This document shows positions 2,616-21,565 of a DNA stretch of 64,000 nt, in pieces. Origin of the DNA: Streptomyces sp. NBC_01244 (GTDB lineage Bacteria > Actinomycetota > Actinomycetes > Streptomycetales > Streptomycetaceae); contig NZ_CP108488.1 in the NCBI RefSeq assembly GCF_035987325.1, positions 6,200,001 to 6,264,000 on the forward strand, written 5' to 3'. Under the pieces are notes generated by a model. It made no database searches, was not told the origin of the DNA, and saw only the letters and a program-made list of their open reading frames with translations. A program made the translations under genes and the position numbers. Numbering within the stretch: the first letter of the stretch is position 1; each line of letters opens with the position of its first letter.

Positions 2616-3995
2616 CTACGGCCGGGCCAGGACCTGCTTCGCGGCCGCGCGCCCCGTCGCGACGCAGGCGGCGACGCCCACGCCCTCGTACGCCGCTCCG
2701 CACAGGGCGATGCCCGGGAGCTTGCCGGCGGCCTCGCGGATGCGGGCGACGCGCTCGCGGTGCCCGACGCCGTACTGGGGCAGGCCCCGGTCCCAGCGGG
2801 TGACGCGGGTGGCCAGGGGTTCGCCCATGGGGCCCACCGCGTGGTGGAGCTCGGCGATGGCCGAGCGGACCAGGTGGCGGTCGGGGCGGCCGAGCAGTTC
2901 GTCCTCCCCGATGCGGCCGATGGAGGCGCGGAGCACGAAGGTCTCGGGGGCTGCGTCGTGCAGCCAGGACCACTTGTTGGAGAGGAAGGAGGCGGCCTTC
3001 AGGGTGTGGCCGTCGACCGGCGGGACCAGGAAGCCGTTGCCCTCGGGGAGGAAGTGGGCCTGGGCGCGGGAGAAGGCCATGGTGATGACGGCCGTCGAGG
3101 CGTGCGGGATCGAGGAGAGCTCGGCCTCGGCGAGCGGGGAGTGCGGGCGCAGCAGCTCCGCCGCCGCGAAGGCGGGAAGGGCGAGGATCACCGCGTCGGC
3201 CTCCATCGTCAGCGCGCCGTCGCCGGTCATCGCCTGGACGCGCCAGCGGCCGTCGGTGACCCGCTGGAGCGAGCGGGCCGTCGTCCCGGTGAGGATGCGG
3301 GCTCCGCAGGCTTCCGCGACGGCCGCCGGGAAGCGCCCGGTGCCGCCGACGACGCCCTGGACGGCCACGGCCCCCGAGCGGGGGGCGCCGGCGGCGCGCA
3401 TCCGACGCAGGGCCGGGAGGAGCGGGGTGCCCTGCTCCGCGAGGGCCGCGATCCGGGGCATGGCCGCGCGCAGCGAGAGCCGGTCGGCGAGGCCGGCGTA
3501 GACGCCGCCCAGCATGGGTTCGATGAGCCGGTCCACGGCCTCCTGGCCGAAGCGGCCGCCCAGGTACTCGGCGACCGAGCAGTCCTCGGTGAGCGGGGTG
3601 GCCGGGAGGGTCTCCTCGGCGGCGACGCGTCGCAGGCCCTCGGGGGAGAGCAGTCCGGTGCCGGCCAGCGCGGAGGGGTCGGTGGGGACGCCCATCACGT
3701 GTCCGGCGGGCAGCGGGCGCAGGGCGCCGTTGGTCCAGATGGTGGTGGCGGCCTTCGCGGGGTCGCAGAGGGCCTCGCCGAGTCCGACGGCGGCGGCCAG
3801 TTCCACGGCTTCCGGGCGCAGGGCCATGAGGGATTCGGCGCCCTCGTCGACGGTGATGCCGGCGATGGTGCCGGTCCGGAGCTTCCCGCCGACCTTGGCG
3901 TGGCTCTCCAGGACGGTCACATCGGCCTGGCCGCGCAACTGCCACGCGGCGGCCAGACCGCTGATCCCGCCACCGATGACGATCACTGAACGCAT
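2616..3995 (-). CDS. hemY: Protoporphyrinogen/coproporphyrinogen oxidase (HemY/CgoX type)
   Basis: An FAD flavoprotein of 459 residues that oxidises a porphyrinogen to the porphyrin in haem synthesis; in Gram-positives the usual substrate is coproporphyrinogen III. The dinucleotide-binding motif VIGGGISGLAAAW starts at about residue 5, the mid-region is typical of the family (SVAEYLGGRFG, LIEPMLGGVYAG), and the C-terminal GAAYEGVGVAACV closes the FAD site. GGAG lies 6 bases before the ATG. It is downstream of a radical SAM gene and the narGHJI operon, so it may be a paralog serving cytochrome b of NarI rather than the housekeeping copy. A 69-base gap with an inverted repeat separates it from the radical SAM gene, suggesting its own promoter. 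Confidence 0.88.
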   Translation of the reverse strand: MRSVIVIGGGISGLAAAWQLRGQADVTVLESHAKVGGKLRTGTIAGITVDEGAESLMALRPEAVELAAAVGLGEALCDPAKAATTIWTNGALRPLPAGHVMGVPTDPSALAGTGLLSPEGLRRVAAEETLPATPLTEDCSVAEYLGGRFGQEAVDRLIEPMLGGVYAGLADRLSLRAAMPRIAALAEQGTPLLPALRRMRAAGAPRSGAVAVQGVVGGTGRFPAAVAEACGARILTGTTARSLQRVTDGRWRVQAMTGDGALTMEADAVILALPAFAAAELLRPHSPLAEAELSSIPHASTAVITMAFSRAQAHFLPEGNGFLVPPVDGHTLKAASFLSNKWSWLHDAAPETFVLRASIGRIGEDELLGRPDRHLVRSAIAELHHAVGPMGEPLATRVTRWDRGLPQYGVGHRERVARIREAAGKLPGIALCGAAYEGVGVAACVATGRAAAKQVLARP

Positions 3996-4033
3996 TGTGT
4001 TCTCCCGTGGCCCCGAGGCCGTGGTCGATATGT

Positions 4034-4054
4034 TCCCATATGAAACGTATGGGA
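4034..4054. promoter_or_regulatory. Inverted repeat in the hemY-like promoter region
   Basis: TCCCATA-N7-TATGGGA is a perfect 7-bp inverted repeat in the 69-base gap between the radical SAM stop and the porphyrinogen oxidase start. It is AT-rich compared with its surroundings and is placed like an operator about 40 bases upstream of the start codon. No known regulator motif is recognised. Confidence 0.5.
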
Positions 4055-4064
4055 GCGGGGTGGG

Positions 4065-5282
4065 TCAGCGCCTCATGCTTTCGGCCAGAGCCCTGAGTTC
4101 CTCCTGGTAGGGGAAGCTGCCGGGCTCGTACGCGCAGTACGGGTCCGCTTCGAGCACGTCGCGCGTGAAGCCGTACGCCCGGGAGCGCGACCCCCCGCAC
4201 ACCGTCTTGAACTCGCACGCCCCGCACGTGCCGCGCAGCAGCGAGGGGTCGCGGAGCTTGGTGAAGAGCGCCGATCCCCGGTAGATCTCGGTCAGCGGGT
4301 GGTTCTTCACGTTGCCCGCCGAGAGCGGCAGGAAGCCGCTGGGGTGCACCTCGCCCGTGTGCGAGATGAAGACGAAGCCGCGGCCCGAGGAGACGTCCAT
4401 GGGCGGCCGGCGCACGGCCCGCCGCTCCCCGTCGAAGACCCCCAGCTCGCGGGCTCGGGCCGAGAGGCGCTCGTGGAGCGGGCCCAGGACGGGCTTCTCG
4501 CCGCGCGCGTCCAGGACGGTGCGCTGCAGCGCGACCCGCCGGAAGTGGTGGCCCTCCGTCGTCTTGGTCGCCATCACCGCCCCGCAGTCGTACAGGAAGT
4601 GCAGGACGTCCTCGATCTCGGCGGCGGTCAGGGAGTCCAGCTGTTCCCCGCGCCCGGTCGGGACCAGGACGAAGCCCGACCACAGCATCGCGCCCTCGCG
4701 CTTGACCAGTGCCGCTATGTCGGCGAGGTCCTCCAGGCTGTCGCGGGTGACCGTGGTGTTGATCTGCACCTTGAGTCCGAGCTCCCGGGCGGCCCGCCAG
4801 CCCTCCAGCGTCCAGTCGTAGACCCCGGGCACGCCCCGGAAGGCGTCGTGGCGCTCGGGCGTGGAACCGTCCAGGGAGAGCGAGAGCGCGATGGCCCCCG
4901 CTTCCCGGACCGCTACGAGGTTCTCCCGGGTCAGCGTCGGCGTGCCCGACGGGGACACCGCGACCCGCAGGCCGAGCGAGGTCCCGTACGCGACCAGGTC
5001 GGTGAGGTCGGTGCGCTGGAAGGGGTCCCCGCCGGTGATCACGAAGAGCGGGCCGGGCTTGCCGAAGGCGGCGATCTGGTCCATCACCCGGCGGGCGTCC
5101 GCCCCGTCGAGCTCCTCGGGGTGGCGCAGGGTCTGCGCCTCGGCCCGGCAGTGCAGACAGGCCAGCGGGCAGGCCCGGGTGGCCTCCCAGATGACGATGA
5201 AGGGCCGGTCGGAGACCGCGCGGCGGGGCTGCCGCACGACGGTGTGGGAGGACCGGGTGGTGTGTGCGGGGCGAGAGGTCAC
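4065..5282 (-). CDS. Radical SAM/SPASM protein, AhbD/NirJ-like (TIGR04053-like)
   Basis: About 405 residues. An N-terminal radical SAM cluster motif CPLACLHC (CxxxCxxC) follows the lead-in RPFIVIWEATRA. A glycine-rich SAM site (VITGGDPF) and a C-terminal SPASM-type cysteine set (CGACEFKTVCGG, later a further Cys) would hold extra 4Fe-4S clusters. The lead-in and SPASM layout match the TIGR04053-like group and resemble haem-tailoring enzymes such as AhbD (iron-coproporphyrin III to haem) and NirJ. The GTG start at 5282 overlaps the narI stop by four bases, so it is translationally coupled to the nitrate reductase operon. A role in haem maturation is inference; peptide modification is the alternative. 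Confidence 0.8.
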   Translation of the reverse strand: MTSRPAHTTRSSHTVVRQPRRAVSDRPFIVIWEATRACPLACLHCRAEAQTLRHPEELDGADARRVMDQIAAFGKPGPLFVITGGDPFQRTDLTDLVAYGTSLGLRVAVSPSGTPTLTRENLVAVREAGAIALSLSLDGSTPERHDAFRGVPGVYDWTLEGWRAARELGLKVQINTTVTRDSLEDLADIAALVKREGAMLWSGFVLVPTGRGEQLDSLTAAEIEDVLHFLYDCGAVMATKTTEGHHFRRVALQRTVLDARGEKPVLGPLHERLSARARELGVFDGERRAVRRPPMDVSSGRGFVFISHTGEVHPSGFLPLSAGNVKNHPLTEIYRGSALFTKLRDPSLLRGTCGACEFKTVCGGSRSRAYGFTRDVLEADPYCAYEPGSFPYQEELRALAESMRR

Positions 5283-6004
5283 GAGACGCGCTCCCAGCCG
5301 CGCTTGCTCGGGCGGTTGGCGAGCTGCTCGGGGTCCCGCTTGCGGTAGACCACGTACGGCCGGAACAGGTACTTCAGCGGCACCGAGAACATGTGCACCA
5401 GGCGCGAGTACGGGATCAGCGCGAACAGCGTGAACCCGAAGAGGATGTGGACCTTGAAGGCGAGCGGGGCGCCCGCCATCAGGTGGTAGTCCGGGGTGAA
5501 GGTGAACAGGCTGCGGAACCACGGGGAGATGCCGTCGCGGTAGTTGTAACCGTCCGTCATCCCGGCCGAGTTCAGCAGGGTCGCCGTCAGCCCGAGGATC
5601 ATCGCGCCGAGCAGGAACGAGTACATCAGGTGGTCGCTGCGCAGCGTCGCCCTGCGCACGGCCGGCACCTTGAAGCGCCGGTAGACCAGGATCCCGATGC
5701 CCACGGCGGCCGCGACGCCCGCGACCGTGCCGGTGGAGAGCGCCATCAGGTGGTACGCGTGGTCGCTCAGGCCCACCGCGTCGGTCCAGCTCTTGGGGAT
5801 GAGCAGGCCGACCACGTGGCCCACGATCACGAAGAGCATGCCGAAGTGGAAGAGCGGCGAGCCGATGCGCAGCAGCCGCGACTCGTGCAGCTGCGAGGAG
5901 TGCGTGGTCCAGCCGAACTTGTCGAAGCGGGCCCGCCAGACCGTGCCCGCGATGAGCAGGGCGATCGAGACGTACGGGAGTACGCCCCACAGGAGGAGGT
6001 CCAT
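5279..6004 (-). CDS. narI: Respiratory nitrate reductase gamma subunit (cytochrome b)
   Basis: The 241-residue membrane subunit takes electrons from menaquinol and passes them through two b haems to NarH. Five hydrophobic segments are visible, starting MDLLLWGVLPYVSIALLIAGT, with candidate haem-ligand histidines in the segments around LFHFGMLFVIVGHVVGL and in KVHILFGFTLF. Length is normal for NarI. Its ATG shares one base with the narJ stop (TGATG), and its own stop overlaps the radical SAM start, indicating tight co-translation. Confidence 0.95.
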   Translation of the reverse strand: MDLLLWGVLPYVSIALLIAGTVWRARFDKFGWTTHSSQLHESRLLRIGSPLFHFGMLFVIVGHVVGLLIPKSWTDAVGLSDHAYHLMALSTGTVAGVAAAVGIGILVYRRFKVPAVRRATLRSDHLMYSFLLGAMILGLTATLLNSAGMTDGYNYRDGISPWFRSLFTFTPDYHLMAGAPLAFKVHILFGFTLFALIPYSRLVHMFSVPLKYLFRPYVVYRKRDPEQLANRPSKRGWERVS

Positions 6005-6726
6005 CAGGCGGGCATCCTTTCGGAGGCGGCGGCAGCGGTCGAGTAGGCCGTCGTGGGCCAGGGGAGGTCGGTCGGGACCGCTCCGGGGAAGTCGGCCGGC
6101 ATGTCGAGGCCCGGCCCGAACGGTTCGAGCGCCGAGCCCGCGCCCACCAGCTCCTGCGGCGGCCCGTTCCTCGCGAGGGCCTTCGCCTCCGCCTTGGTCT
6201 CGGGGGAGGGCCCGGGCAGCGTCGCGCAGACGGCCTCCAGGATCCGGGCGTACGGGGATCCGAACTCGGTGAGCGCCAGGCGCAGCAGCTCCAGCCCGGC
6301 CCGGTGCTCCTGGAGCAGCCGGGTGCCGGCCTCCTCCTCGCGGGCGGCGAACTCCAGGGCCACCGGGAGGAAGTCGGGCAGTTCCTCACCCGCGAACTCC
6401 AGCCCGAAGTCCCGGTAGATCCGCTTCAGCCGGACCAGGGACAGCCCGCGCCGGCGAGTGTCCCCGTCGACCCACCAGGTGAGGTAGAGGCAGCGCCGGT
6501 TGCGGGTGTCGAAGGTGGAGGTGTACTGGGAGCACAGCTCGATCGGGGTCTGGACCTCGGCCTCGTCCAGGAACGCGCCGAGCAGCGCGGCCGGTTCGGC
6601 GGGCGCCCCGGCGAGGGCCGCACGGAGCCGCGGGAGTTCGTCGTGGAAGTAGTCGCCGGGGTACTGCAGTACGCAGCCCGCGACCAGCCGCACCAGTGCG
6701 TCACCACTCATCGGATTCCGGATCAC
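6004..6726 (-). CDS. narJ: Nitrate reductase assembly chaperone NarJ
   Basis: A cytoplasmic chaperone of about 240 residues that inserts the molybdenum cofactor into NarG before membrane docking. The family signature YTSTFDTRNRRCLYLTWWV is present, followed by the helical DTRRRG region. The GTG at 6726 was chosen because AGGAGG lies 5 bases upstream and it overlaps the narH stop (GTGA); an internal ATG at 6711 is the alternative. The C-terminal 50 residues are Pro/Ala-rich and variable. Confidence 0.93.
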   Translation of the reverse strand: MIRNPMSGDALVRLVAGCVLQYPGDYFHDELPRLRAALAGAPAEPAALLGAFLDEAEVQTPIELCSQYTSTFDTRNRRCLYLTWWVDGDTRRRGLSLVRLKRIYRDFGLEFAGEELPDFLPVALEFAAREEEAGTRLLQEHRAGLELLRLALTEFGSPYARILEAVCATLPGPSPETKAEAKALARNGPPQELVGAGSALEPFGPGLDMPADFPGAVPTDLPWPTTAYSTAAAASERMPA

Positions 6727-8279
6727 GAACGCCTCCTGGTATCCCCGAGATTGAGCATCACCCGGGGTTCGGGCAGTGCGGCGACGGGGCAGCCCTGCTC
6801 CGCGTCGTTCAGCGGGTGCGAGTCGGCGAGCGCGTCGGCCTCGGCGCGGGCGGCGCTGGGGATCACGAAGCGGTCCTCGATCTTGGCGATGGCGAGGAGC
6901 CGGAACATGTCCTCCATCTCCTGCCCGGACAGCCCGACGGCCCGCGCGATCGACTCGTCGCGCTCCTCGCCCAGGTTGACCCGGCGCATGTAGGCGCGCA
7001 TCGCGGCCATCCGGCGCAGCACCGCCTCCACGGGCACGGTGTCGCCGGCGGTCAGGACCTCCGCGAGGTACTCGACGGGGATGCGCAGGGACTCGATGGC
7101 ACCGAAGAGGTTTCCGGCGTCCTCGCCGTCGCTGCCGGTGGCGGCGACGGCCTCGACCACGGGGGAGAGCGGCGGGACGTACCAGACCATCGGCATCGTC
7201 CGGTACTCCGGGTGGAGGGGGAGGGCGACCTGGTAGGTGGCGATCAGGTCGTAGACCGGGGAGTTGCGGGCCGCGTCGAGCCACTCGTCGGTGATGCCGG
7301 CCGCGCGGGCGGCGGCGATCACGGCGGGGTCCGCGGGGTCGAGGAAGCACTCCACCTGGAAGGGGTACAGATCGTGCTCGTCCTCGACCGCTGCGGCCTC
7401 GGCCACCTTGTCGGCGTCGTAGAGCATCACGCCGAGGTAGCGCATCCGGCCCACGCACGTCTCCGAGCACACGGTCGGCATGCCGACCTCGATGCGCGGG
7501 AAGCAGAAGGTGCACTTCTCGGCCTTGCCGGTCTGGTGGTTGAAGTACACCTTCTTGTACGGGCATCCGGTCACGCACATCCGCCAGCCGCGGCACTGGT
7601 CCTGGTCGACCAGGACGATGCCGTCCTCCTCGCGCTTGTACATCGCGCCGGAGGGACAGGAGGAGACGCACGCGGGGTTGAGGCAGTGCTCGCAGATCCG
7701 CGGGAGGTAGAACATGAAGCTCTGCTCGAACTCGAAGCGGATCTTCTCGCCGACCGCGTCGCGGATCTTCTCGATGATCGGGTCCTGCGGGGCGTGCGTG
7801 GGCGCGCCGCCGAGGTTGTCGTCCCAGTTCGGACCCCACTCGATCTTGTCGATGGGCTCGCCGGTGAGCTGGGAGACGGGCCGGGCGGTGGGCATGTCGT
7901 CGCCCGCCGGGGCCTCGGTGAGGTTCTTGTACTCGTAGGTCCAGGGCTGGTAGTAGTCGTCGATCTCCGGCAGGTCCGGGTTCGCGAAGATTTTGCCCAG
8001 CTTGGCGAGCCGGCCGCCCGCCTTGAGGCGGAGCTTGCCGGAGCGGGTGCGCTCCCAGCCGCCCTTCCACTTCTCCTGATCCTCCCAGCGGCGCGGGTAA
8101 CCCTGGCCGGGGAGGGTCTCGACGTTGTTGAACCAGACGTATTCGGTGCCCTGCCGGTTGGTCCACGCCTGCTTGCAGGTGACCGAGCAGGTGTGGCAGC
8201 CGATGCACTTGTCGAGGTTCATGACCATCGCGACCTGTGCCATCACACGTCCGATAGTGGCTTCGCCACGGGGCATCAC
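6723..8279 (-). CDS. narH: Respiratory nitrate reductase beta subunit (Fe-S)
   Basis: An electron-transfer subunit with four iron-sulphur clusters. The cysteine groups are CIGCHTCSVTC, CEHCLNPACVSSCPSG, CRGWRMCVTGCPYKK and CTFCFPRI..CSETC. The Trp in CRGW replaces a cysteine, the known feature that makes one cluster 3Fe-4S. The first possible start, GTG at 8279, has GGAG 6 bases upstream inside the narG end and gives 518 residues; ATG at 8243 (MAQVAMVMNLDKC) gives 506 residues and matches the usual family N-terminus. The gene directly abuts the narG stop. Confidence 0.95.
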   Translation of the reverse strand: MMPRGEATIGRVMAQVAMVMNLDKCIGCHTCSVTCKQAWTNRQGTEYVWFNNVETLPGQGYPRRWEDQEKWKGGWERTRSGKLRLKAGGRLAKLGKIFANPDLPEIDDYYQPWTYEYKNLTEAPAGDDMPTARPVSQLTGEPIDKIEWGPNWDDNLGGAPTHAPQDPIIEKIRDAVGEKIRFEFEQSFMFYLPRICEHCLNPACVSSCPSGAMYKREEDGIVLVDQDQCRGWRMCVTGCPYKKVYFNHQTGKAEKCTFCFPRIEVGMPTVCSETCVGRMRYLGVMLYDADKVAEAAAVEDEHDLYPFQVECFLDPADPAVIAAARAAGITDEWLDAARNSPVYDLIATYQVALPLHPEYRTMPMVWYVPPLSPVVEAVAATGSDGEDAGNLFGAIESLRIPVEYLAEVLTAGDTVPVEAVLRRMAAMRAYMRRVNLGEERDESIARAVGLSGQEMEDMFRLLAIAKIEDRFVIPSAARAEADALADSHPLNDAEQGCPVAALPEPRVMLNLGDTRRRS

Positions 8280-11200
8280 TTAGAACTCCACCTTCTGGTC
8301 GCGGCGGCGGATGACCGTCACCTCGTCGCGCTGGTTTCCGGTCGGGCCGAGGTAGTTGAAGGCCCAGGTCAGCTGGGCGTAGCCGCCGATGAGGTGGGTG
8401 GGCTTGAGCATCACCCGGGTCAGCGAGTTGTGGATGCCGCCGCGGCGGCCGGTCTTCTCCGTCTTGGGGACGCCGACCGTGCGCTCCTGCGCGTGGTTCA
8501 TGTAGACCGTGCCGGGCGGCATCTTGTGGGAGACGATCGCGCGGGCGGTGATCACGCCGTTGCGGTTGACCGCTTCGATCCAGTCGTTGTCCGCGACGCC
8601 GATCGCCTCGGCGTCCTGCGGGGACATCCAGACCGTCTGGCCGCCGCGTCCCAGGGTCATCATGTAGAGGTTGTCCTGGTACTGGCTGTGGATCGCCCAC
8701 TTGTTGTGCGGGGTCAGGTACCGGACGGCCACCGACTTCGCCTTCTCGTCGATCGTGCCGAGCTCGGGCTCCCCGTACAGGGTGTGCATGTTCAGCGGCG
8801 GCTTGTAGACGGGGAGGGACTCCCCGACCTCGTGCAGCCAGTCGTGGTCGATGAAGAAGTGCTGGCGGCCGGTGAGGGTGTGCCAGGGCTTGAGGTGCTC
8901 GGTGTTGATCGTGAAGGCCGTGTACCGGCGCCCACCGGACTCGGAGCCCGACCACTCCGGCGAGGTGATCACCGGGACCGGGCGGGCCTGGGTGTCGGCG
9001 AAGGTGATCCGCTTGCCCTCGGCCTCGGCGGCCAGGTGGGCCATCGGGGTGCCGACCTTCTTCTCCAGGGTCTCGAACCCCTGCGTGGCGAGGCGGCCGT
9101 TGCTGGTGCCGGACAGCGAGAGGATCGCCTCGCAGGCCTGCTGGGCCGTCTCCAGGCGCGGGCGGCCGTCGGCGACGCCGCCGCGGACCGTGCCGTTCTT
9201 CGCGCCGAGGTAGGCCACCTCTTCGGCCACGTCGAAGGTGACCGCCTTCGTGGTCACGCCCAGCGTGTCGACGAGCGGGCCGAGCGCGGCGAACTTCTCG
9301 CCGACCGCCCCGTAGTCCCGCTCCACGACCGCCAGGTTGTACATGGTCCGGCCCGGTACGGGCTCGCACTCGCCCTTCGACCAGTCCAGCGCGACCCCGC
9401 CGGGCTGCGCCATCTCACCGCCCGGGGTGTCGTGCTGCAGGGCGGTGGCGACCAGGTCCTTGCGCACGCCCAGGTGCGTCTTCGCGAGCTCACCGAACCG
9501 CTCGGCCAGCCCCTTGAAGGCGTCGTAGTCGGAGCGCGCCTGCCACGGCGGGTCCACGGCCGGGGTGAAGGCGTGCAGGAAGGGGTGCATGTCCGTGGAG
9601 GACAGGTCGTGCTTCTCGTACCAGGTGGCCGCCGGGAACACCACGTCCGACAGCAGCGTCGTGGACGTCATCCGGAAGTCCATGGACATGAGCAGGTCGA
9701 GCTTGCCCTCCACGTCCTCCTCCCGGTACGTCACGTCCTTCGGCGTGCAGCGCGGCCCGTCCTCGGGCAGGTTGGAGTGGGTCCCCAGGAGGTGCTTGAG
9801 GAAGTACTCGTTGCCCTTGGAACTGGAGCCCAGCAGGTTGGCCCGCCACACGTTGAGCACGCGAGGCCAGTTGCCCGGGGCGTCCGGGTCCTCGCCGGCG
9901 AAACCGAGCTCGCCGCTCCTGAGCTGCTCGACGGCGGACGCCACCGGGTCCTCGGCCTCGCCCAGGTCCAGCGGGTTGCGGTCGAAGGTCGGGTACGAGG
10001 GCATCCAGCCCATCCGGGCGCTCGCCGCCAGGCAGTCCGAGCCCGTCATGCCCTCGAAGGCGCCGGAAGCGAGCGGGGAGGCGAGCGCCTCCGCCGGAAG
10101 CGTGTCGTAGCGCCACTGGTCGGTGTGCAGGTAGAACCAGGCCGCGCCGATCATCTGGCGCGGCGGGCGCGACCAGTCGGAGGCGGCGGCCAGCGTCGCC
10201 CAGCCGGTGACCGGGCGGCACTTCTCCTGGCCGACGTAGTGGCCCCAGCCGCCGCCGTTGCGGCCCTGGCAGCCGGTGAGGGTGAGCAGGGCCAGGAAGG
10301 AGCGGTAGATGGTCTCGGAGTGGAACCAGTGGTTGGTGCCCGCGCCCATCAGGATCATGCAGCGGCCCCGGGACTGCTCGGCGGTCTGCGCGAACTCCCG
10401 TGCCACGCGCGCCGCCTGGGCCGCCGGGACCGAGGTCAGCGACTCCTGCCAGCCGGGGGTGCCCGGGGCGCTCGCGTCCTCGTAGCCCGTGGGCCACACG
10501 CCGGGCAGGCCCTCGCGGCCGACCCCGTACTGGGCGAGCATCAGGTCGAAGACGGTGGTGACCAGCCGCTCCCCGCCCGCGGTCGCCAGGCGCCGTACGG
10601 GCACACCGCGGCGGATGGTGCCGCGCGGCTTCCCGTCCTCGCCCACGCCCTGCTCGTCGTCCTCGAAGCGGGGGAGGGTGATCTCCACGCCCTCGCCGTC
10701 GGCGGCGTGGAGGGTCAGGCGCGGGACGGTGTCGCCGAGTTCGAGATTCCACTCGGGCTTCTCGTTCTTGCCCCAGCGGTGGCCGAGCGTGCCGTTCGGG
10801 ACGACGGCCTCGCCGGTCGTGTCGTCGATCAGGACGGTCTTCCACTGCGCGTTCTCAGTGTCCTGACCGAGATCGGCGGCGGTGACGAACTTGCCGGGAA
10901 CCAAGCCCTGTTCGGTTTCACTGAGGGACACCAGGAAAGGCAGGTCCGTGTACTGCCGGACGTAGTCCGTGAAGAAGGGAGTCTGCTGGTCGACGAAGAA
11001 TTCCTTGAGGATGACATGGCCCATCGCGAGGGCCAGCGCACCGTCCGTACCGGGGTGCGGGTGCATCCATTCATCGGCGAATTTGGTGTTGTCCGCGTAA
11101 TCGGGGGAAACGGTGACGACCTTCTGGCCGCGGTAGCGGGCCTCGGCCATCCAGTGGGCGTCCGGGGTACGCGTGACGGGAACGTTCGAGCCCCACATCA

Positions 11201-11987
11201 TCAGGTACGCGGCGTCCCACCAGTCACCCGACTCCGGGACGTCCGTCTGGTCCCCGAAGACCTGCGGGGAGGCGACCGGAAGGTCGGCGTACCAGTCGTA
11301 GAAGGACAGCATCGGCGCACCGATGAGCGAGTGGAAGCGGGCGCCGGCCGCGTGCGAGGCCATCGACATCGCCGGGATCGGCGAGAAGCCGGCGACACGG
11401 TCCGGACCGTGCTCCTTGATCGTGTGCACGTGGGCGGCCGCGACGATCTCCGTCGCCTCCTCCCACGTCGCCCGCACCAGCCCGCCCTTGCCGCGCGCCT
11501 GCTGGTACGTACGCCGGCGCACCGGGTCGGACTGGACGTCGGCCCAGGCCTCGACCGGGTCGCCGAGGCGCGCCTTGGCCTCGCGGTACATCTCCAGCAG
11601 GGCGCCGCGCACGTACGGGTAGCGCACCCGGGTGGGGGAGTAGGAGTACCAGGAGAACGAGGCGCCGCGCGGGCAGCCGCGGGGCTCGTACTCGGGGCTG
11701 TCGGGACCCACCGAGGGATAGTCGGTGGACTGCGTCTCCCAGGTGATGATCCCGTCCTTGACGTAGACCTTCCACCGGCAGGAGCCCGTGCAGTTCACGC
11801 CGTGGGTGGAGTACACGACCTTGTCGTGGCTCCACCGGTCGCGGTAGAAGGCCTCCGCGGCGCGGCCGCCGGTGTGGTGGACGGTCCGCAGGTCGCCGGA
11901 GACCTCGGCGGTCCTGAAGAAGCTGCCCGCCTTGATCAGCGATTCGGCGGCGTCCTGGTGTCCGTCGCGTATGTGGCGCTCGTTCAA
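8280..11987 (-). CDS. narG: Respiratory nitrate reductase alpha subunit (molybdenum catalytic)
   Basis: The 1235-residue catalytic subunit reduces nitrate to nitrite at a bis-MGD molybdenum centre on the cytoplasmic side. The N-terminal HGVNCTGSCRWKVY contains the His and Cys ligands of the FS0 4Fe-4S cluster, and the following GCPRGASFS is typical of NarG. TTG at 11987 is preferred because GGAGG lies 6 bases upstream (first residues M-NERHIRDG); a further TTG at 12035 would add 16 residues without a good ribosome site. It is the first gene of narGHJI. Molybdenum cofactor supply links it to moaE at 47.2 kb. No nitrate transporter (narK) is present in the window. Confidence 0.96.
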   Translation of the reverse strand: MNERHIRDGHQDAAESLIKAGSFFRTAEVSGDLRTVHHTGGRAAEAFYRDRWSHDKVVYSTHGVNCTGSCRWKVYVKDGIITWETQSTDYPSVGPDSPEYEPRGCPRGASFSWYSYSPTRVRYPYVRGALLEMYREAKARLGDPVEAWADVQSDPVRRRTYQQARGKGGLVRATWEEATEIVAAAHVHTIKEHGPDRVAGFSPIPAMSMASHAAGARFHSLIGAPMLSFYDWYADLPVASPQVFGDQTDVPESGDWWDAAYLMMWGSNVPVTRTPDAHWMAEARYRGQKVVTVSPDYADNTKFADEWMHPHPGTDGALALAMGHVILKEFFVDQQTPFFTDYVRQYTDLPFLVSLSETEQGLVPGKFVTAADLGQDTENAQWKTVLIDDTTGEAVVPNGTLGHRWGKNEKPEWNLELGDTVPRLTLHAADGEGVEITLPRFEDDEQGVGEDGKPRGTIRRGVPVRRLATAGGERLVTTVFDLMLAQYGVGREGLPGVWPTGYEDASAPGTPGWQESLTSVPAAQAARVAREFAQTAEQSRGRCMILMGAGTNHWFHSETIYRSFLALLTLTGCQGRNGGGWGHYVGQEKCRPVTGWATLAAASDWSRPPRQMIGAAWFYLHTDQWRYDTLPAEALASPLASGAFEGMTGSDCLAASARMGWMPSYPTFDRNPLDLGEAEDPVASAVEQLRSGELGFAGEDPDAPGNWPRVLNVWRANLLGSSSKGNEYFLKHLLGTHSNLPEDGPRCTPKDVTYREEDVEGKLDLLMSMDFRMTSTTLLSDVVFPAATWYEKHDLSSTDMHPFLHAFTPAVDPPWQARSDYDAFKGLAERFGELAKTHLGVRKDLVATALQHDTPGGEMAQPGGVALDWSKGECEPVPGRTMYNLAVVERDYGAVGEKFAALGPLVDTLGVTTKAVTFDVAEEVAYLGAKNGTVRGGVADGRPRLETAQQACEAILSLSGTSNGRLATQGFETLEKKVGTPMAHLAAEAEGKRITFADTQARPVPVITSPEWSGSESGGRRYTAFTINTEHLKPWHTLTGRQHFFIDHDWLHEVGESLPVYKPPLNMHTLYGEPELGTIDEKAKSVAVRYLTPHNKWAIHSQYQDNLYMMTLGRGGQTVWMSPQDAEAIGVADNDWIEAVNRNGVITARAIVSHKMPPGTVYMNHAQERTVGVPKTEKTGRRGGIHNSLTRVMLKPTHLIGGYAQLTWAFNYLGPTGNQRDEVTVIRRRDQKVEF

Positions 11988-12219
11988 GGCGACCCTCCAG
12001 GCCGGAATAAAAGGCGGTGCGTGGGGTCCGGGCAAGATGACCCAGACACGACGCTACGCCCGGCGCGGAGGCGAATCCGATGACAAAGGTCCCGTACGGG
12101 CGTGACCTAATTCCGGTCTTTCACAGGTCGAGTGGATGCCACGCTGGAGAAGGCCAACTCCTTTGTACGGCCGGAAAATTACGAGCCCGAATACCAATTA
12201 GCGGGGAAGGTCGCAGAAC
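11988..12219. promoter_or_regulatory. narG / ywiC divergent promoter region
   Basis: A 232-base gap between divergent starts. It contains an inverted repeat AGGTC-N12-GACCT at 12087-12108, with the palindrome CCCGTACGGG nested in its spacer at 12091-12100, and a second GGTC-N7-GACC at about 12104-12118 on the plus strand reading GACC-TAATTCC-GGTC. These lie about 100 bases upstream of the narG start. No clear FNR box (TTGAT-N4-ATCAA) or DevR-type dormancy box was found. Confidence 0.4.
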
Positions 12220-12960
12220 GTGCCGCCGAAGAAGGTCTCCTGGATCCCGGACCAGCACGGGGCGTGGGCGATGCTCACGGTGCCCTTCCTCGCGGGCACG
12301 TTCCTCTCGCCGCGGCCCGGATGGCAGCACGCCCTGCTCCTGACGGCCTGGCTCCTCGGCTACGCGGCGGTCTTCCACGCCCAGCAGTGGCTGCGCCTGC
12401 GCCGGGTCGCGGCCAGGCGCCCGGAGGTGGCGCGGCGGCACGTCCGCCCGGCCCTCGTACTCGGCGCGGCGACCGCCCTGGCGGGGATCCCGCTCGCGGT
12501 GCTCCACCCCTGGCTGCTGCTCGCGGGCGCGGCGGCGGCGCCCTTCGTGGCCGTGAACTCCTGGTTCGCGCTGCGGAACCGCGAGCGCGCCCTGGCCAAC
12601 GGACTGGCCGCGGTGGTCCCGGCGTGCGGGATGCTGCTGGTGGCGGCGCGGCTCGGAGGGGGCGGCCTGCCCTGGGCGCCGGCCGCCGCCTGCCTGCTGT
12701 ACTTCGCGGGCACGGTCCCGTACGTGAAGACGATGATCAGGGAGCGGAACTCCCGTACGTACTACCGCGGTTCGGTGGCCTACCACGCGATGGCCACCGC
12801 CCTGGCGGCCTGCCTCTCCCCGTGGCTGGCCCTCCCCTTCGCGGCCTACCTGGCCCGGGCCGCGGCGCTCCCCGGCCGCGGGCTCAAGGTGGCGGTGGTC
12901 GGCACCGTCGAAATCGTCGGGTCTGCGGCCCTGCCGGCTTCGCTGCTGCTGATCTTCTGA
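12220..12960 (+). CDS. ywiC: YwiC-like integral membrane protein
   Basis: A 246-residue polytopic membrane protein with about seven or eight hydrophobic segments. The N-terminal signature WIPDQHGAWAMLTVPFLAG and the mid-protein FVAVNSWFALRNRERALANGL match the YwiC-like family. Its biochemical function is unknown. B. subtilis ywiC lies between fnr and narG, so the same neighbourhood in two phyla points to a role in nitrate or anaerobic respiration. Start GTG with GAAGG 9 bases upstream. It is transcribed away from narG and is a single-gene unit here. Confidence 0.85.
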   Translation: MPPKKVSWIPDQHGAWAMLTVPFLAGTFLSPRPGWQHALLLTAWLLGYAAVFHAQQWLRLRRVAARRPEVARRHVRPALVLGAATALAGIPLAVLHPWLLLAGAAAAPFVAVNSWFALRNRERALANGLAAVVPACGMLLVAARLGGGGLPWAPAAACLLYFAGTVPYVKTMIRERNSRTYYRGSVAYHAMATALAACLSPWLALPFAAYLARAAALPGRGLKVAVVGTVEIVGSAALPASLLLIF

Positions 12961-17644: not shown

Positions 17645-20600
17645 GTGAACACCTCTTCCTCCGACGGCCACCGCACCGAGCGGCGGCGTACGCGGACCCC
17701 GGACGCGTACCGCCTGGTGCGTACCGGTGCGGAGCGGGTGGATCCCCCTGTGCTGGACGCAGCGCAGCGGGCGGTGGTTGAGCACACCGGCGGCCCGCTG
17801 CTCGTCCTGGCCGGACCGGGCACCGGAAAGACGACCACCCTGGTCGAGGCGGTCGCCGCCCGCGTGGAGTCCGGGACCGACCCCGCCCGCGTCCTGATCC
17901 TCACCTTCAGCCGCAAGGCCGCGGTGGAACTGCGCGACCGGACCGCCCTGCGGCTCGGCGGGGCGCGCGCCCCGCAGGCCACCACCTTCCACTCCTTCTG
18001 TTACGGACTGGTCCGCGCCCACCAGGACGCCGAACTCTTCGCGGACCCGCTGCGCCTCCTCTCCGGCCCGGAGCAGGACGTCATGGTCCGTACCCTCCTC
18101 GAAGGCCAGCGCCGGATCCGCTCGATCCGCTGGCCGGACGACCTGCGGGCCGCGCTGACCACGCGGGGCTTCGCGGACGAGGTCCGCGCGGTGCTCGCCC
18201 GAGCCCGCGAGCTGGGCCTGGGCCCGACGGCCCTGTCCGACTTCGCGTCCCGCATCGGCCGCCCGGACTGGAAGGCGGCGGCGGCCTTCCTCGCCGAATA
18301 CCTGGACGTCCTGGACCTCCAGGGCACCCTGGACTACGCGGAACTCCTCCACCGCGCGGTCCTCCTCGCGGAGCGCACCCCGTCGCTGTCGTCCCTGTAC
18401 GACGTGATCTACGTGGACGAGTACCAGGACACGGACGCCTCGCAACTGCGCCTGCTGCGCGCGCTGGCCGGCCCCTCCGGCCGGCTGACCGCCTTCGGCG
18501 ACCCCGACCAGTCGATCTACGCCTTCCGCGGCGCGGACATCAACAACATCCTGGACTTCGAGACCTCCTTCCCCGGAGCGCAGGTCCACGCCCTGACGAT
18601 CTCCCGCCGCTCGGCCTCGGTCCTCCTGACCGCCACCCGCCACCTGACCACCCGCATGCAGGTGCCGCGCCTGCCCTCGGCGGCGGTACGGGCCCACCGC
18701 GCGCTCGCGTCGACCCGCGAGGGCGGCCGGGTCGAGGTGTTCACCTACCCCACGGCCGGCGCGGAACTGGACAACATCGCCGACATCCTGCGCCGGGCCC
18801 ACCTGGAGGAGGGCGTGCCGTGGCAGGACATGGCCGTCCTGGTCCGCGCGGGCGGCCGCACCCTGCCGCAGATGCGCCGCGCCCTGATCGCGGCGGGAGT
18901 CCCGGCCGAAACCGACGGCACGGACGCCCCCCTCCGCCACGAGCCGGCCATAGCCCCCCTCCTCACGGCCCTCCGCACCCTCGCGGAATCCCACACCGCG
19001 CCGACCCCACCCGACCCGGCCACCCCCGCATCCGCCGAGGCCCCGCCACCCCAGGACGACCTCCCCGACGAAGCCGACCCCGCTTCCGTCACCGCGGACG
19101 CCACTGCGAGCGAGCCCACGCGCACTTCCGGGGCGGATGCCCGGGATGCCCCCCTCGCCGCGGCAGGCGGCACCGTTCCGCCCGGCTCCGCCGCCACGGC
19201 CGGCACCGGCCTGTCCGGCTCCGCCGCCGCCCCGGCCGGGGCGCAGGGCGTGCTTCCTGACGCGGTCGGCGGTGCGGGCGAGCCCACTCGCACTTCCGAG
19301 GCGGATGCCCGGGATGCCTCCCTCGCCGAGGTAGGCGGCACCGGCCTGTCCGGCTCCGCTGACGTCCCGGCCGTGCCGGAGGGCGAGCTTCCCGACGCGG
19401 TCGGCGGTGCGGGCGAGCCTGCTCGCACTTTTGGGGCGGGTGGGCGGGAGACTTCGTCCGCCGCCGCGGCCGGCACCGGCCTGTCCGGCTCCGCCGCCGC
19501 CCCCGCCGGGGCGCAGGGCGTGCTCCCCGACGGAGTCGGGGCCGTTTCCGGTGGCGAGGGCGGGCTTGCCGGTGCGGACGGGGCGGGTGGGCGGGACACC
19601 TCACCCGCCGCCGAAGGCGGCGCCGGCGGGCCCGGCACCGAGGCCGGACCCGGATCCGGCGAGCCCGCCGCAGGCGAAGCGTGGATCGGGGTCGAGGCCG
19701 CGCTCGTGCTGCTGTCCTCGCCGCTCGGCGGGATGGACGCCGCCGACCTCCGCCGGCTCGGCCGCGCCCTGCGCGACGAGGAGCGGGCCGCCGGCGTCCG
19801 CACCCCCGCGCCCTCCGACGTCCTCCTCGCCCGCGCCCTCGCGGAGCCGGAGCGGCTCGTCGCCCACGACCCCGCCTACGCCCGCGGAGCGCAGCGCCTC
19901 GGCCTGCTGCTGCGCAAGGCCCGCGAACTCCTCGCCGGCGGCGGCACCGCCGAGGAGGTCCTGTGGACCCTCTGGGACGGCACCCCCTGGCCGCAGCGCC
20001 TCGAACGCAGCGCCCGCCGCGGCGGGCCCGCCGGCCGCAACGCCGACCGTGACCTCGACGCCGTCTGCGCGCTCTTCGACACCGCCGCCCGCGCGGAGGA
20101 ACGTACCGGCGGCCGCGGCGCCCTCAACTTCCTCGAACAGCTCGAGGCCGAGGACATCGCCGGAGACACCCTCACCCCCCGCGCCACCCGCCGGGAAGCC
20201 GTCCGCCTGATGACCGCGCACCGCTCCAAGGGCCTGGAGTGGGGCCTCGTCGTCGTCGCGGGCGTCCAGGAAGGGCTCTGGCCCGACCTGCGCCGCCGCG
20301 GCTCCCTCCTCGAAGCCGACCGCATCGGACGCGACGGCCTCGCCGAACCCCTCACCCCCGGCGCGCTCCTCGCCGAGGAGCGCCGCCTGTTCTACGTCGC
20401 CGCCACCCGCGCCCGCGACCGCCTCGTCGTCACCGCCGTCAAGGCCCCCGCCGAGGACGGCGACCAGCCCTCCCGCCTCCTCACCGAGCTCGGCGTCCCC
20501 GTCAAGGACGTCACCGGCCGCCCCCGGCGCCCCCTCGCCGTCCCCGCGCTCGTCGCGGAACTCCGCGCCACCACCGTCGACCCCGACGCCTCGCCCGCCC

Positions 20601-21565
20601 TGCGCGACGCCGCCGCCCGGCGCCTCGCCCGGCTCGCCGTGCTCACCGACGACGAGGACCGCCCGCTGGTCCCCGCCGCGCACCCGCAGCGCTGGTGGGG
20701 CCTGTACGAGCCCACCCGCAGCAGCGTCCCGCTCCGCGACCGCGACCACCCCGTCGCCCTGTCCGGCTCCGCCCTGGAGCAGCTCGCCAACACCTGCTCC
20801 CTCCAGTGGTTCCTTGGCCGCGAGGTCAAGGCCGACGCCCCCTCCACCGCCGCCCAGGGCTTCGGCAACGTCGTCCACGTCCTCGCCGACGAGGTCGCCT
20901 CCGGCCGCACTCCCGCCGACCTCGCCGTCCTCATGGAACGCCTCGACTCCGTCTGGGACTCGCTCGCCTTCGACGCCCCCTGGAAGTCCCGCCAGGAGAA
21001 GGACAACGCCCGCGCCGCCCTGGAGCGCTTCCTGCGCTGGCACACCACCGACCGCGGCGGCCGGGCGGCCGTGGCCACCGAGCACGACTTCGACGTCACC
21101 CTCGAAGCGGGGGAGTACGCCGTCCGGGTGCGCGGCTCCATGGACCGGGTCGAGGCGGACGCGCAGGGCCGGGCGTACGTCGTCGACTTCAAGACCGGCA
21201 AGTCCGCGCCGACCGCCAAGGAGGTCGAACGGCACCCGCAGCTCGCCGTGTACCAGCTCGCCGTGCGCGAGGGCGCCGTCGACGACGTCTTCGACGGACT
21301 GCGCCCCGCACCGGGCGGCGCCGAACTCGTGCAGCTGCGCCAGGGCGCCGCCCAGCGCGACGGCGGCGACACCGTGCCCAAGATCCAGGCGCAGCAGGCC
21401 CTGGAGGGCGGCGCTCCCGGCGAATGGGTCGGCGACCTGCTCGCCACCGCGGCCGGCCGGGTCCTCGACGAGCGCTTCGCGCCCGTCCTGGGCAAGCACT
21501 GCGACCACTGCTCCTTCCGCGCCTCGTGCAGCGCCCGCCCGGAGGGCCGCCAGACGGTGGAGTAG
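17645..21565 (+). CDS. adnA: AdnA-like ATP-dependent helicase-nuclease subunit
   Basis: A superfamily 1 helicase/nuclease of about 1306 residues for double-strand break end resection; AdnAB replaces RecBCD/AddAB in actinobacteria. Walker A GPGTGKTTT lies at about residue 58, Walker B/II at VIYVDEYQD, motif VI region at YVAATRARD. The C-terminal PD-(D/E)XK nuclease has VVDFKTGK and QLAVYQ, framed by four cysteines (NTCSLQW and HCDHCSFRASC) expected to hold a 4Fe-4S cluster. Residues about 450-680 are a Gly/Ala/Pro/Ser-rich insertion with three imperfect repeats, absent from the typical 1050-residue homologs. The GTG start is followed 44 bases after its stop by adnB. AdnA assignment rests on the GPGTGKT motor and Fe-S nuclease. 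Confidence 0.88.
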   Translation: MNTSSSDGHRTERRRTRTPDAYRLVRTGAERVDPPVLDAAQRAVVEHTGGPLLVLAGPGTGKTTTLVEAVAARVESGTDPARVLILTFSRKAAVELRDRTALRLGGARAPQATTFHSFCYGLVRAHQDAELFADPLRLLSGPEQDVMVRTLLEGQRRIRSIRWPDDLRAALTTRGFADEVRAVLARARELGLGPTALSDFASRIGRPDWKAAAAFLAEYLDVLDLQGTLDYAELLHRAVLLAERTPSLSSLYDVIYVDEYQDTDASQLRLLRALAGPSGRLTAFGDPDQSIYAFRGADINNILDFETSFPGAQVHALTISRRSASVLLTATRHLTTRMQVPRLPSAAVRAHRALASTREGGRVEVFTYPTAGAELDNIADILRRAHLEEGVPWQDMAVLVRAGGRTLPQMRRALIAAGVPAETDGTDAPLRHEPAIAPLLTALRTLAESHTAPTPPDPATPASAEAPPPQDDLPDEADPASVTADATASEPTRTSGADARDAPLAAAGGTVPPGSAATAGTGLSGSAAAPAGAQGVLPDAVGGAGEPTRTSEADARDASLAEVGGTGLSGSADVPAVPEGELPDAVGGAGEPARTFGAGGRETSSAAAAGTGLSGSAAAPAGAQGVLPDGVGAVSGGEGGLAGADGAGGRDTSPAAEGGAGGPGTEAGPGSGEPAAGEAWIGVEAALVLLSSPLGGMDAADLRRLGRALRDEERAAGVRTPAPSDVLLARALAEPERLVAHDPAYARGAQRLGLLLRKARELLAGGGTAEEVLWTLWDGTPWPQRLERSARRGGPAGRNADRDLDAVCALFDTAARAEERTGGRGALNFLEQLEAEDIAGDTLTPRATRREAVRLMTAHRSKGLEWGLVVVAGVQEGLWPDLRRRGSLLEADRIGRDGLAEPLTPGALLAEERRLFYVAATRARDRLVVTAVKAPAEDGDQPSRLLTELGVPVKDVTGRPRRPLAVPALVAELRATTVDPDASPALRDAAARRLARLAVLTDDEDRPLVPAAHPQRWWGLYEPTRSSVPLRDRDHPVALSGSALEQLANTCSLQWFLGREVKADAPSTAAQGFGNVVHVLADEVASGRTPADLAVLMERLDSVWDSLAFDAPWKSRQEKDNARAALERFLRWHTTDRGGRAAVATEHDFDVTLEAGEYAVRVRGSMDRVEADAQGRAYVVDFKTGKSAPTAKEVERHPQLAVYQLAVREGAVDDVFDGLRPAPGGAELVQLRQGAAQRDGGDTVPKIQAQQALEGGAPGEWVGDLLATAAGRVLDERFAPVLGKHCDHCSFRASCSARPEGRQTVE

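Follow-up and report, generated by a model that had tools for sequence, protein, structure and literature searches.

Background

Haem b can be completed from iron-coproporphyrin III (coprohaem), on which the sirohaem and coproporphyrin routes are reported to converge (PMC7242693), by two enzymes described as having no structural similarity: HemQ (also termed ChdC), which needs peroxide, and the radical S-adenosylmethionine (SAM) enzyme AhbD (PMC10965808). Reviews give AhbD as the enzyme that finishes the coproporphyrin pathway under anaerobic conditions, naming no Gram-positive gene in the passages concerned (PMC7242693, PMC10548856, PMC12670364), and a 2024 paper describes a second, oxygen-independent enzyme as required but as yet unknown (PMC10965808). 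Here we describe a candidate: a radical SAM gene of the NCBIfam family TIGR04053, which has no function name, lying in a nitrate reductase (nar) operon within a 64 kb stretch (hereafter the window; positions 6200001-6264000 of contig NZ_CP108488.1, our G000:C1) of the 10.0-Mb genome of Streptomyces sp. NBC_01244.

In Haloferax volcanii, deletion of ahbD (HVO_2144) harms only denitrifying growth and growth by respiration of dimethyl sulfoxide (DMSO), and deletion of the ChdC-type gene pitA harms only aerobic growth; added haem restores DMSO-respiring growth of the ahbD mutant, and denitrifying growth is regained only partly, with haem plus DMSO (PMC5746218). The genes near HVO_2144 are described as nirK, norB and blue copper genes (PMC5746218). 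This type of AhbD, used beside ChdC, has the sirohaem route upstream (PMC8305020), and in AhbD of non-methanogenic archaea the AuxI cysteines are reported to be replaced by Glu, any residue, Ser and Ser (PMC10452713). With regard to the oxidase that yields coproporphyrin III, Staphylococcus aureus CgoX works both with and without oxygen, and the S. coelicolor cgoX, when introduced into S. aureus, partly complemented aerobic growth and did not complement anaerobic growth at all (PMC6620371).

Results

The radical SAM protein and its family

The radical SAM gene (window positions 4065-5282, minus strand), which we propose to encode an AhbD-like synthase of haem b from coprohaem, scores 478.7 bits on TIGR04053 against a curated cut-off of 395 and is therefore a member of that family. 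Scores on NirJ2 (189 bits), AhbC (162 bits) and NirJ (TIGR04051; 153.1 bits, cut-off 515) are much lower, and assignment to AhbD or NirJ proper was rejected, as both cut-offs were missed. Six sequences from solved structures matched the protein, the best being PqqE, and none of them was named AhbD or NirJ.

In a tree of 79 rows, TIGR04053 forms a single clade (53 rows, support 100/99) sister to the TIGR04545 AhbD proteins (14 rows), the two together being supported at 100/97. AhbC, NirJ and MftC lie on the other side, two NirJ rows among them, such that TIGR04053 is monophyletic with AhbD to the exclusion of AhbC and NirJ. Seven of the 14 AhbD rows were scanned, five of which exceeded the AhbD cut-off and two fell below it, with AhbD the best model for each; M. 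barkeri AhbD and HVO_2144 are not among the rows of the tree, and there are long branches on MftC and on two TIGR04053 rows. A preliminary description of the locus, made from the sequence alone, had termed the enzyme 'AhbD/NirJ-like'. The first half of this label is upheld by the sister relationship, but the protein belongs to TIGR04053 and is neither AhbD nor NirJ proper.

Forty-nine columns are conserved in at least 90% of the rows of both TIGR04053 and AhbD, and in 44 of these the residue is the same; seven of the 44 are not common to AhbC/NirJ, and one conserved TIGR04053 column is common to AhbC/NirJ and not to AhbD. Like AhbD as known from M. barkeri and D. vulgaris, the window protein has the radical SAM motif CX3CX2C and a C-terminal CX2CX5CX20-38C, as do all 24 loci of the phylum sample described below, but these cysteines are not diagnostic, since AhbC/NirJ rows possess them too. 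The difference from AhbD lies at the positions of additional SPASM cysteines in the 14 AhbD rows, where TIGR04053 mostly has Glu or Ser. At the AuxI positions the window protein has E243, V297, S315 and S365, while the family as a whole has Glu in 43/53 rows (Ala in 10), a variable second position, Ser in 45/53 (Ala in 8) and Ser in 52/53 with one gap; the first position is Cys in 7/14 AhbD rows. The window protein thus follows the Glu/any/Ser/Ser pattern reported for non-methanogenic archaeal AhbD.

The L068 protein scores 469.5 bits on TIGR04053, over the cut-off, and that of L067, scanned without its N-terminus, 361 bits, which is under it. A frame in L066, a Nitrospinota metagenome-assembled genome (L066:7053-8012), is cut off after 319 of roughly 373 codons and likewise falls short at 357 bits; either the copy is damaged or the assembly is wrong here. 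Both L066 and L067 were kept in the counts. An apparent fusion of the radical SAM protein to CgoX (P0101) was set aside as a probable sequencing slip, because the reading frame of its CgoX part is lost after some 40 residues.

Organisation of the operon and its link to nitrate reductase

The operon lies on the minus strand, and all four NarGHJI models exceed their cut-offs in it. narG, for the alpha subunit of respiratory nitrate reductase (8280-11987; TIGR01580, 1592.7 bits, cut-off 1084), has a TTG start codon with GGAGGG ahead of it, and is followed by narH, for the beta subunit (6723-8279, the start being at 8279 or slightly downstream; TIGR01660, 775 bits), narJ, for the chaperone (6004-6726, scanned as 6004-6720; TIGR00684, 104.4 bits), and narI (5279-6004; TIGR00351, 211.1 bits; PF02665), for the gamma subunit, which carries two b haems. 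Stop and start codons overlap at the narH/narJ, narJ/narI and narI/radical SAM junctions, with GTG starts for narJ and the radical SAM gene. A 69 bp spacer (3996-4064) then precedes a gene for a CgoX/HemY-type coproporphyrinogen oxidase (2616-3995; TIGR00562, 200.9 bits, cut-off 97.85). The uninterrupted run from narG to the oxidase gene that had been described is therefore accurate as far as the radical SAM gene, and the family given for the last gene is borne out.

The closest named relatives of the window protein are from Streptomyces, with 94-96% identity. In 15 named Streptomyces loci (L009-L022 and L064), narI is directly upstream of the radical SAM gene on the same strand, a repetition that argues against a chance arrangement; cgoX follows next in 14 of the 15, the contig of L064 ending at that point. 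In an even draw of 159 genomes of the genus, TIGR04053 exceeds its cut-off in 21, and 55 match narG (54 over the cut-off). All 21 carriers have narG, as against 34/138 non-carriers (Fisher p 1e-11, a value inflated by the kinship of the genomes, though the adjacency itself is direct). The two genes always share a contig, at a distance of up to 24 kb in 21/21, 10 kb in 20/21 and 5 kb in 18/21. The same-strand layout of the window is found in 6/21.

The preliminary description had suggested a search for such co-occurrence across actinobacterial genomes. Among 246 genomes sampled from the phylum, of which 25 have TIGR04053 over the cut-off, narG is present in 8/25 carriers and 25/221 non-carriers (p 0.009), but outside the genus the figures are 5/22 and 23/216 (p 0.15). 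A linkage to nar in actinobacteria generally was accordingly rejected, and the narG link is specific to the genus of the window. Among named loci, narG or narI is found in the flanks of 31/77, in a set biased towards close relatives; one of 78 loci, L086, a 28% partial match, was left out, and L001-L008 and L087-L096 were not counted as separate loci, although all 79 rows stay in the tree.

Haem genes and other neighbours of TIGR04053

Neighbourhoods were inspected in 24 loci of the phylum sample (L100-L123) and the window, six of the loci being shorter than 19 kb and ended by contig ends. A haem-pathway gene adjoins TIGR04053 in 9/25. For instance, G007 has hemE-cpfC-cgoX-hemQ followed by the radical SAM gene on one strand, CgoX is adjacent in the window and in G139, and an AhbC/NirJ1-like gene is adjacent in G218, G165, G172, G129 and G151; four of these five genes were scanned and stayed below the cut-offs of 650, with 335-473 bits on AhbC or 374-465 bits for NirJ1. 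In G010, cgoX, TIGR04053, hemE and cpfC are found in under 7 kb of a single contig (L105:2874-9473; G010:C65). Outside the actinobacteria, a haem gene lies beside TIGR04053 in 5/9 loci (L065-L069, L071-L073 and L082): ferrochelatase in L065 and L082, CgoX in L066, and an AhbC-like gene in L067 and L069. The first of these is from Sporolactobacillus shoreae, in which TIGR04053 is convergent with a second ferrochelatase gene (L065:9989-12234) and the other ferrochelatase copy occurs with a HemQ-family gene on another contig.

The remaining actinobacterial neighbours include nitronate monooxygenase, NarK (named by eye), hemerythrin, DUF2249, nitroreductase and PNPOx, and resemble predicted OsdR targets of S. 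coelicolor. The nitronate-monooxygenase-like family was found in 25 TIGR04053 loci (L024-L054 and others; Nonomuraea, Actinomadura, Planobispora and others), on the same strand as the radical SAM gene in 23 and adjacent to it in most. In Salinispora, all six loci (L045, L055, L057, L058, L060 and L075) have a small hemerythrin-type protein with a CNYCGC motif encoded 38-57 bp from TIGR04053, and candidate nitrite-reductase-like matches of about 100-130 bits were also seen in actinobacterial loci.

Twenty-seven distinct TIGR04053 genomes were searched for ferrochelatase (PF00762) and AhbA/B (PF17805), G255 and G073, which have identical match coordinates, being counted once. Ferrochelatase is present in 17, none of which has AhbA/B over the cut-off (two sub-cut-off matches were seen); of the 10 without ferrochelatase, seven have AhbA/B and three have neither over the cut-off. 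TIGR04053 thus goes with either upstream route. The genome of the window has one ferrochelatase, one HemQ-family gene and three CgoX genes over the cut-off, and profile searches of it found no AhbA/B (PF17805), HemF or HemN over the cut-off. More widely, a HemQ-family gene (PF06778) was found in 35/43 genome entries (42 distinct, five being genus genomes without TIGR04053).

A separate cgoX paralog

The nar-linked CgoX proteins form their own clade (15 rows, 100/99), which is joined by L023, a copy linked to the radical SAM gene and having no nar genes in its flanks. The HemQ-linked Streptomyces copies form another group (10 rows, 98/96), and a third paralog also lies apart from this clade; the nar-linked CgoX of the window is about 52% identical to the HemQ-linked copy of its own genome. 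Thus, it belongs to the same family (TIGR00562) as CgoX of S. aureus and S. coelicolor but is a paralog from a distinct clade. The third CgoX-family member (G000:C2:166032-167438; L151) is found on the 300 kb contig C2 and groups with copies from G182 and G193. Since S. coelicolor CgoX did not sustain S. aureus in the absence of oxygen, there is room for a paralog that works anaerobically, and such a further CgoX next to an oxygen-independent coprohaem decarboxylase would close that gap.

Putative regulation

A block upstream of narG is conserved in 16/16 aligned loci. It contains a perfect 14/14 palindrome of the DevR type, GGGACYWWAGTCCC, in 7/16 (7/15 relatives of the window), and in the window a degenerate DevR-like palindrome, GGGACCTTTGTCAT (12080-12093, minus strand), matching at 11/14 positions. 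The label refers to the mycobacterial consensus. This box is only suggestive, because one position was relaxed (Y for T) after the sequences had been viewed and the match in the window has a simulated p of 0.113; a further scan gave 8 matches as against 22 expected by chance. The predicted targets of OsdR in S. coelicolor listed in Table 1 of PMC5069765 include narG2 and SCO6041-6042 (cgoX-hemQ). A scan of the spacer between the radical SAM gene and cgoX for sigma-70-type promoters found none. Low-oxygen control of the operon is plausible.

Flanking genes

Divergent from narG is a gene for a YwiC-like membrane protein (12220-12960, plus strand; PF14256, 112.4 bits), which is a neighbour only, with no part in haem function claimed for it. 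Downstream of cgoX, on the minus strand, are a response regulator (PF00072/PF00486) and a CseC-like histidine kinase (461-2508), and at 17645-21565 on the plus strand is a gene for a UvrD-type helicase fused to a PD-(D/E)XK nuclease domain.

Discussion

Comparison with haloarchaeal AhbD

Proteins from Haloferax larsenii, Halarchaeum, Halobaculum and Halorussus all fall within the TIGR04053 clade. That of H. larsenii is 44.6% identical to the window protein, scoring 501.6 bits on TIGR04053 (over the cut-off) and 342.8 on AhbD (under the cut-off), and its gene is surrounded by a multicopper oxidase, a cbb3/NOR-type subunit and halocyanin. Similarly, the Halobaculum and Halorussus genes are beside annotated nirK, a cbb3/NOR-type subunit and halocyanin, with a HemY-type gene two genes downstream in Halorussus. 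Unlike the window gene, these haloarchaeal genes have nirK/NOR-type neighbours and are not inside narGHJI. The likeness of this setting to that of HVO_2144 suggests that the latter may be of the same kind, a step that rests on the similar gene surroundings.

A possible pathway

The best explanation of the radical SAM gene is that it very probably encodes an AhbD-like coprohaem decarboxylase. The fuller statement, that the nar operon carries a branch for finishing haem independently of oxygen and peroxide, is on balance likely. It draws on the tree and the conserved columns common to AhbD, the genetics of HVO_2144, haem-gene neighbours in several phyla, the division of genomes between ferrochelatase and AhbA/B, the genomes without a HemQ match, the narG linkage within the genus and the separate clade of the nar-linked CgoX. 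In the proposed branch, the nar-linked CgoX would convert coproporphyrinogen III into coproporphyrin III, passing electrons to an acceptor that is not oxygen, and the product of the single ferrochelatase gene would insert iron to give coprohaem. The TIGR04053 enzyme would then act as AhbD does: a reduced [4Fe-4S] cluster would split SAM, and the 5'-deoxyadenosyl radical would take a beta-hydrogen from each of two ring propionates, with loss of CO2 and formation of two vinyl groups to give haem b, the electrons presumably leaving, as in AhbD, through an auxiliary cluster or another carrier. The cell could in this way complete haem b, including that of NarI, at oxygen and peroxide levels too low for HemQ. 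We infer the substrate, product, electron acceptors, low-oxygen expression and delivery to NarI.

Several observations weigh against this interpretation. The window protein reaches 304.2 bits on the AhbD equivalog TIGR04545, under the cut-off of 500, for which reason it is not filed as AhbD proper, and the interrupted L066 copy does not reach the C-terminal cysteine motif. A match at E<=1e-110 is seen in the H. volcanii control genome, but also in that of M. acetivorans (three controls match at this level and two of them exceed the TIGR04053 cut-off, H. volcanii not necessarily among them). None of the haem genes searched for is near TIGR04053 in 16/25 actinomycetotes. The weak box in the window, at 11/14, does little for low-oxygen control, and the published OsdR consensus is unmatched upstream of narG, upstream of the HemQ-linked cgoX and in the gap between the radical SAM gene and cgoX; the latter, 69 bp away, may have its own promoter. 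Finally, the genome of the window has HemQ (once, outside the operon) plus two other CgoX genes, and a HemQ-family gene is kept in 20/25 carriers of the phylum sample. An oxygen-limited bypass of HemQ, as originally envisaged, is partly supported, by the AhbD-like enzyme, its haem-gene neighbours in some of its other hosts, the division of its genomes between ferrochelatase and AhbA/B and the coupling to nar within the genus, but could be at most conditional given that HemQ is retained.

The possible exceptions are G010, G253 (Planctomycetota) and G254 (UBP9), the TIGR04053 proteins of the last two scoring 398 and 465 bits. All three have ferrochelatase, a HemY-type gene and TIGR04053, and in none was a HemQ-family match, HemF or HemN found over the cut-off, assignments to be read in the knowledge that PF00762 covers both CpfC and PpfC, TIGR00562 both CgoX and protoporphyrinogen oxidase, and PF06778 both HemQ and chlorite dismutase. 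Completeness is 94% for G010; the absence of HemQ from G253 and G254 is provisional, because their completeness is not stated. Replacement of HemQ by TIGR04053 in these genomes is possible on their gene content. Two further genomes, G135 and G157, have no HemQ-family gene and possess ferrochelatase (partial in G157), with a HemY type not over the cut-off.

Alternative explanations

The alternative that survives best accepts that the protein is a coprohaem decarboxylase, and holds that it stands with nar only through shared hypoxia regulation and neighbourhood, serving general haem supply with a redundant CgoX copy. As it proposes the same reaction as the AhbD-like reading, the chances of the two overlap. 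It would account for the lack of a significant narG link outside the genus, for the low-oxygen or NO-like character of the neighbours there, which are much like the S. coelicolor OsdR targets (PMC5069765, Table 1), and for the three CgoX copies in one genome. It sits poorly with the overlap of narI and the radical SAM gene, the stability of the narI-radical SAM-cgoX order in 14/15 loci and the separate clade formed by the nar-linked CgoX, and we consider it rather unlikely.

It is improbable that TIGR04053 modifies another tetrapyrrole, for instance towards haem d1, the nar-linked gene making a special cofactor in place of haem b. This idea draws on a Thermus TIGR04053 gene between nirS and a cytochrome c gene (nirSJM), the product of which has been called NirJ (PMC7694296), a circumstance that also counts against the AhbD-like reading, and on the C-terminal CX2CX5CX20-21C common to NirJ (PMC10548856). 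NirJ itself (TIGR04051) is a related radical SAM enzyme of N-oxide respiration loci, on whose model the window protein attains 153 of 515 bits, and the Thermus protein falls in the tree within the TIGR04053 clade and not with NirJ. Furthermore, the Glu and Ser positions follow the non-methanogenic archaeal AhbD pattern, Lrp/AsnC-annotated genes lie beside nirJ in both NirJ loci viewed, and the genome of the window has no match to an AhbA/B-type sirohaem decarboxylase (PF17805), the nirS family not having been searched there. The Thermus gene in question, annotated nirJ on plasmid pTF27b of T. thermophilus (L099:7974-9101), encodes a TIGR04053 protein that groups with haloarchaeal AhbD-type proteins, apart from proteobacterial NirJ. 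To judge from this placement, the enzyme may make haem b, not haem d1, which suggests that its name is wrong.

A SPASM-type maturase of peptides or proteins, acting on a ribosomally synthesised and post-translationally modified peptide (RiPP) or a Nar subunit, is highly improbable: membership of the radical SAM/SPASM superfamily, weaker matches to MftC and PqqE, and CGCGG-type candidate RiPP genes in haloarchaeal islands speak for it, but haem-gene neighbours do not fit such an enzyme, and two of these CGCGG peptides and a Htur_1727-type peptide matched by tblastn only in haloarchaeal loci among all collected loci and the window. Short open reading frames with a CGCGG/CGCG motif are absent from the window operon and from four Streptomyces loci arranged in the same way; of two loci with the other layout, L104 has none and L103 has two, of 98 residues (DUF2249-like by eye) and 22 residues. 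RiPP precursors in place of nar genes, which had been named beforehand as telling against a role in haem synthesis, were thus not found for the CGCGG/CGCG and haloarchaeal peptide types tested, and the maturase was rejected or at least weakened to that extent. The haloarchaeal candidates lie in denitrification-type islands that also hold TIGR04053 (L098:4977-5276, L142:1-44 and L143:1854-2165), L142 additionally holding a TIGR04347 pseudo-SAM gene.

Relation to described systems

A bypass of HemQ is not new as such, because the AhbD step already appears in reviews. TIGR04053 was not mentioned in the literature searched, and among the titles and abstracts listed no operon of this nar/radical SAM/CgoX type was reported. 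Within that literature, the assignment of TIGR04053, its combination with a separate CgoX as a module of the nar operon and the HemQ-less genomes look new, their kind being known. The proposed reaction is that of HemQ, from coprohaem to haem b; the distinction from AhbD is that TIGR04053, under the equivalog cut-off, stands in coproporphyrin-route genomes.

Conclusions

The radical SAM protein of the Streptomyces nar operon is a clear candidate for a gap named in the literature, but no new kind of enzyme. A bolder proposal, as a whole slightly less likely than not, is that Gram-positive bacteria using the coproporphyrin route have in TIGR04053 their 'yet unknown' coprohaem decarboxylase that is independent of oxygen, that in Streptomyces it forms a dedicated haem-finishing module of the nar operon with an anaerobic CgoX paralog of its own, and that it has replaced HemQ in G010, G253 and G254. 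The question of how Gram-positive bacteria make haem without oxygen would then have a specific and widespread family to point to and, if the proposal is true, there would be a reason why some bacteria keep a second CgoX.

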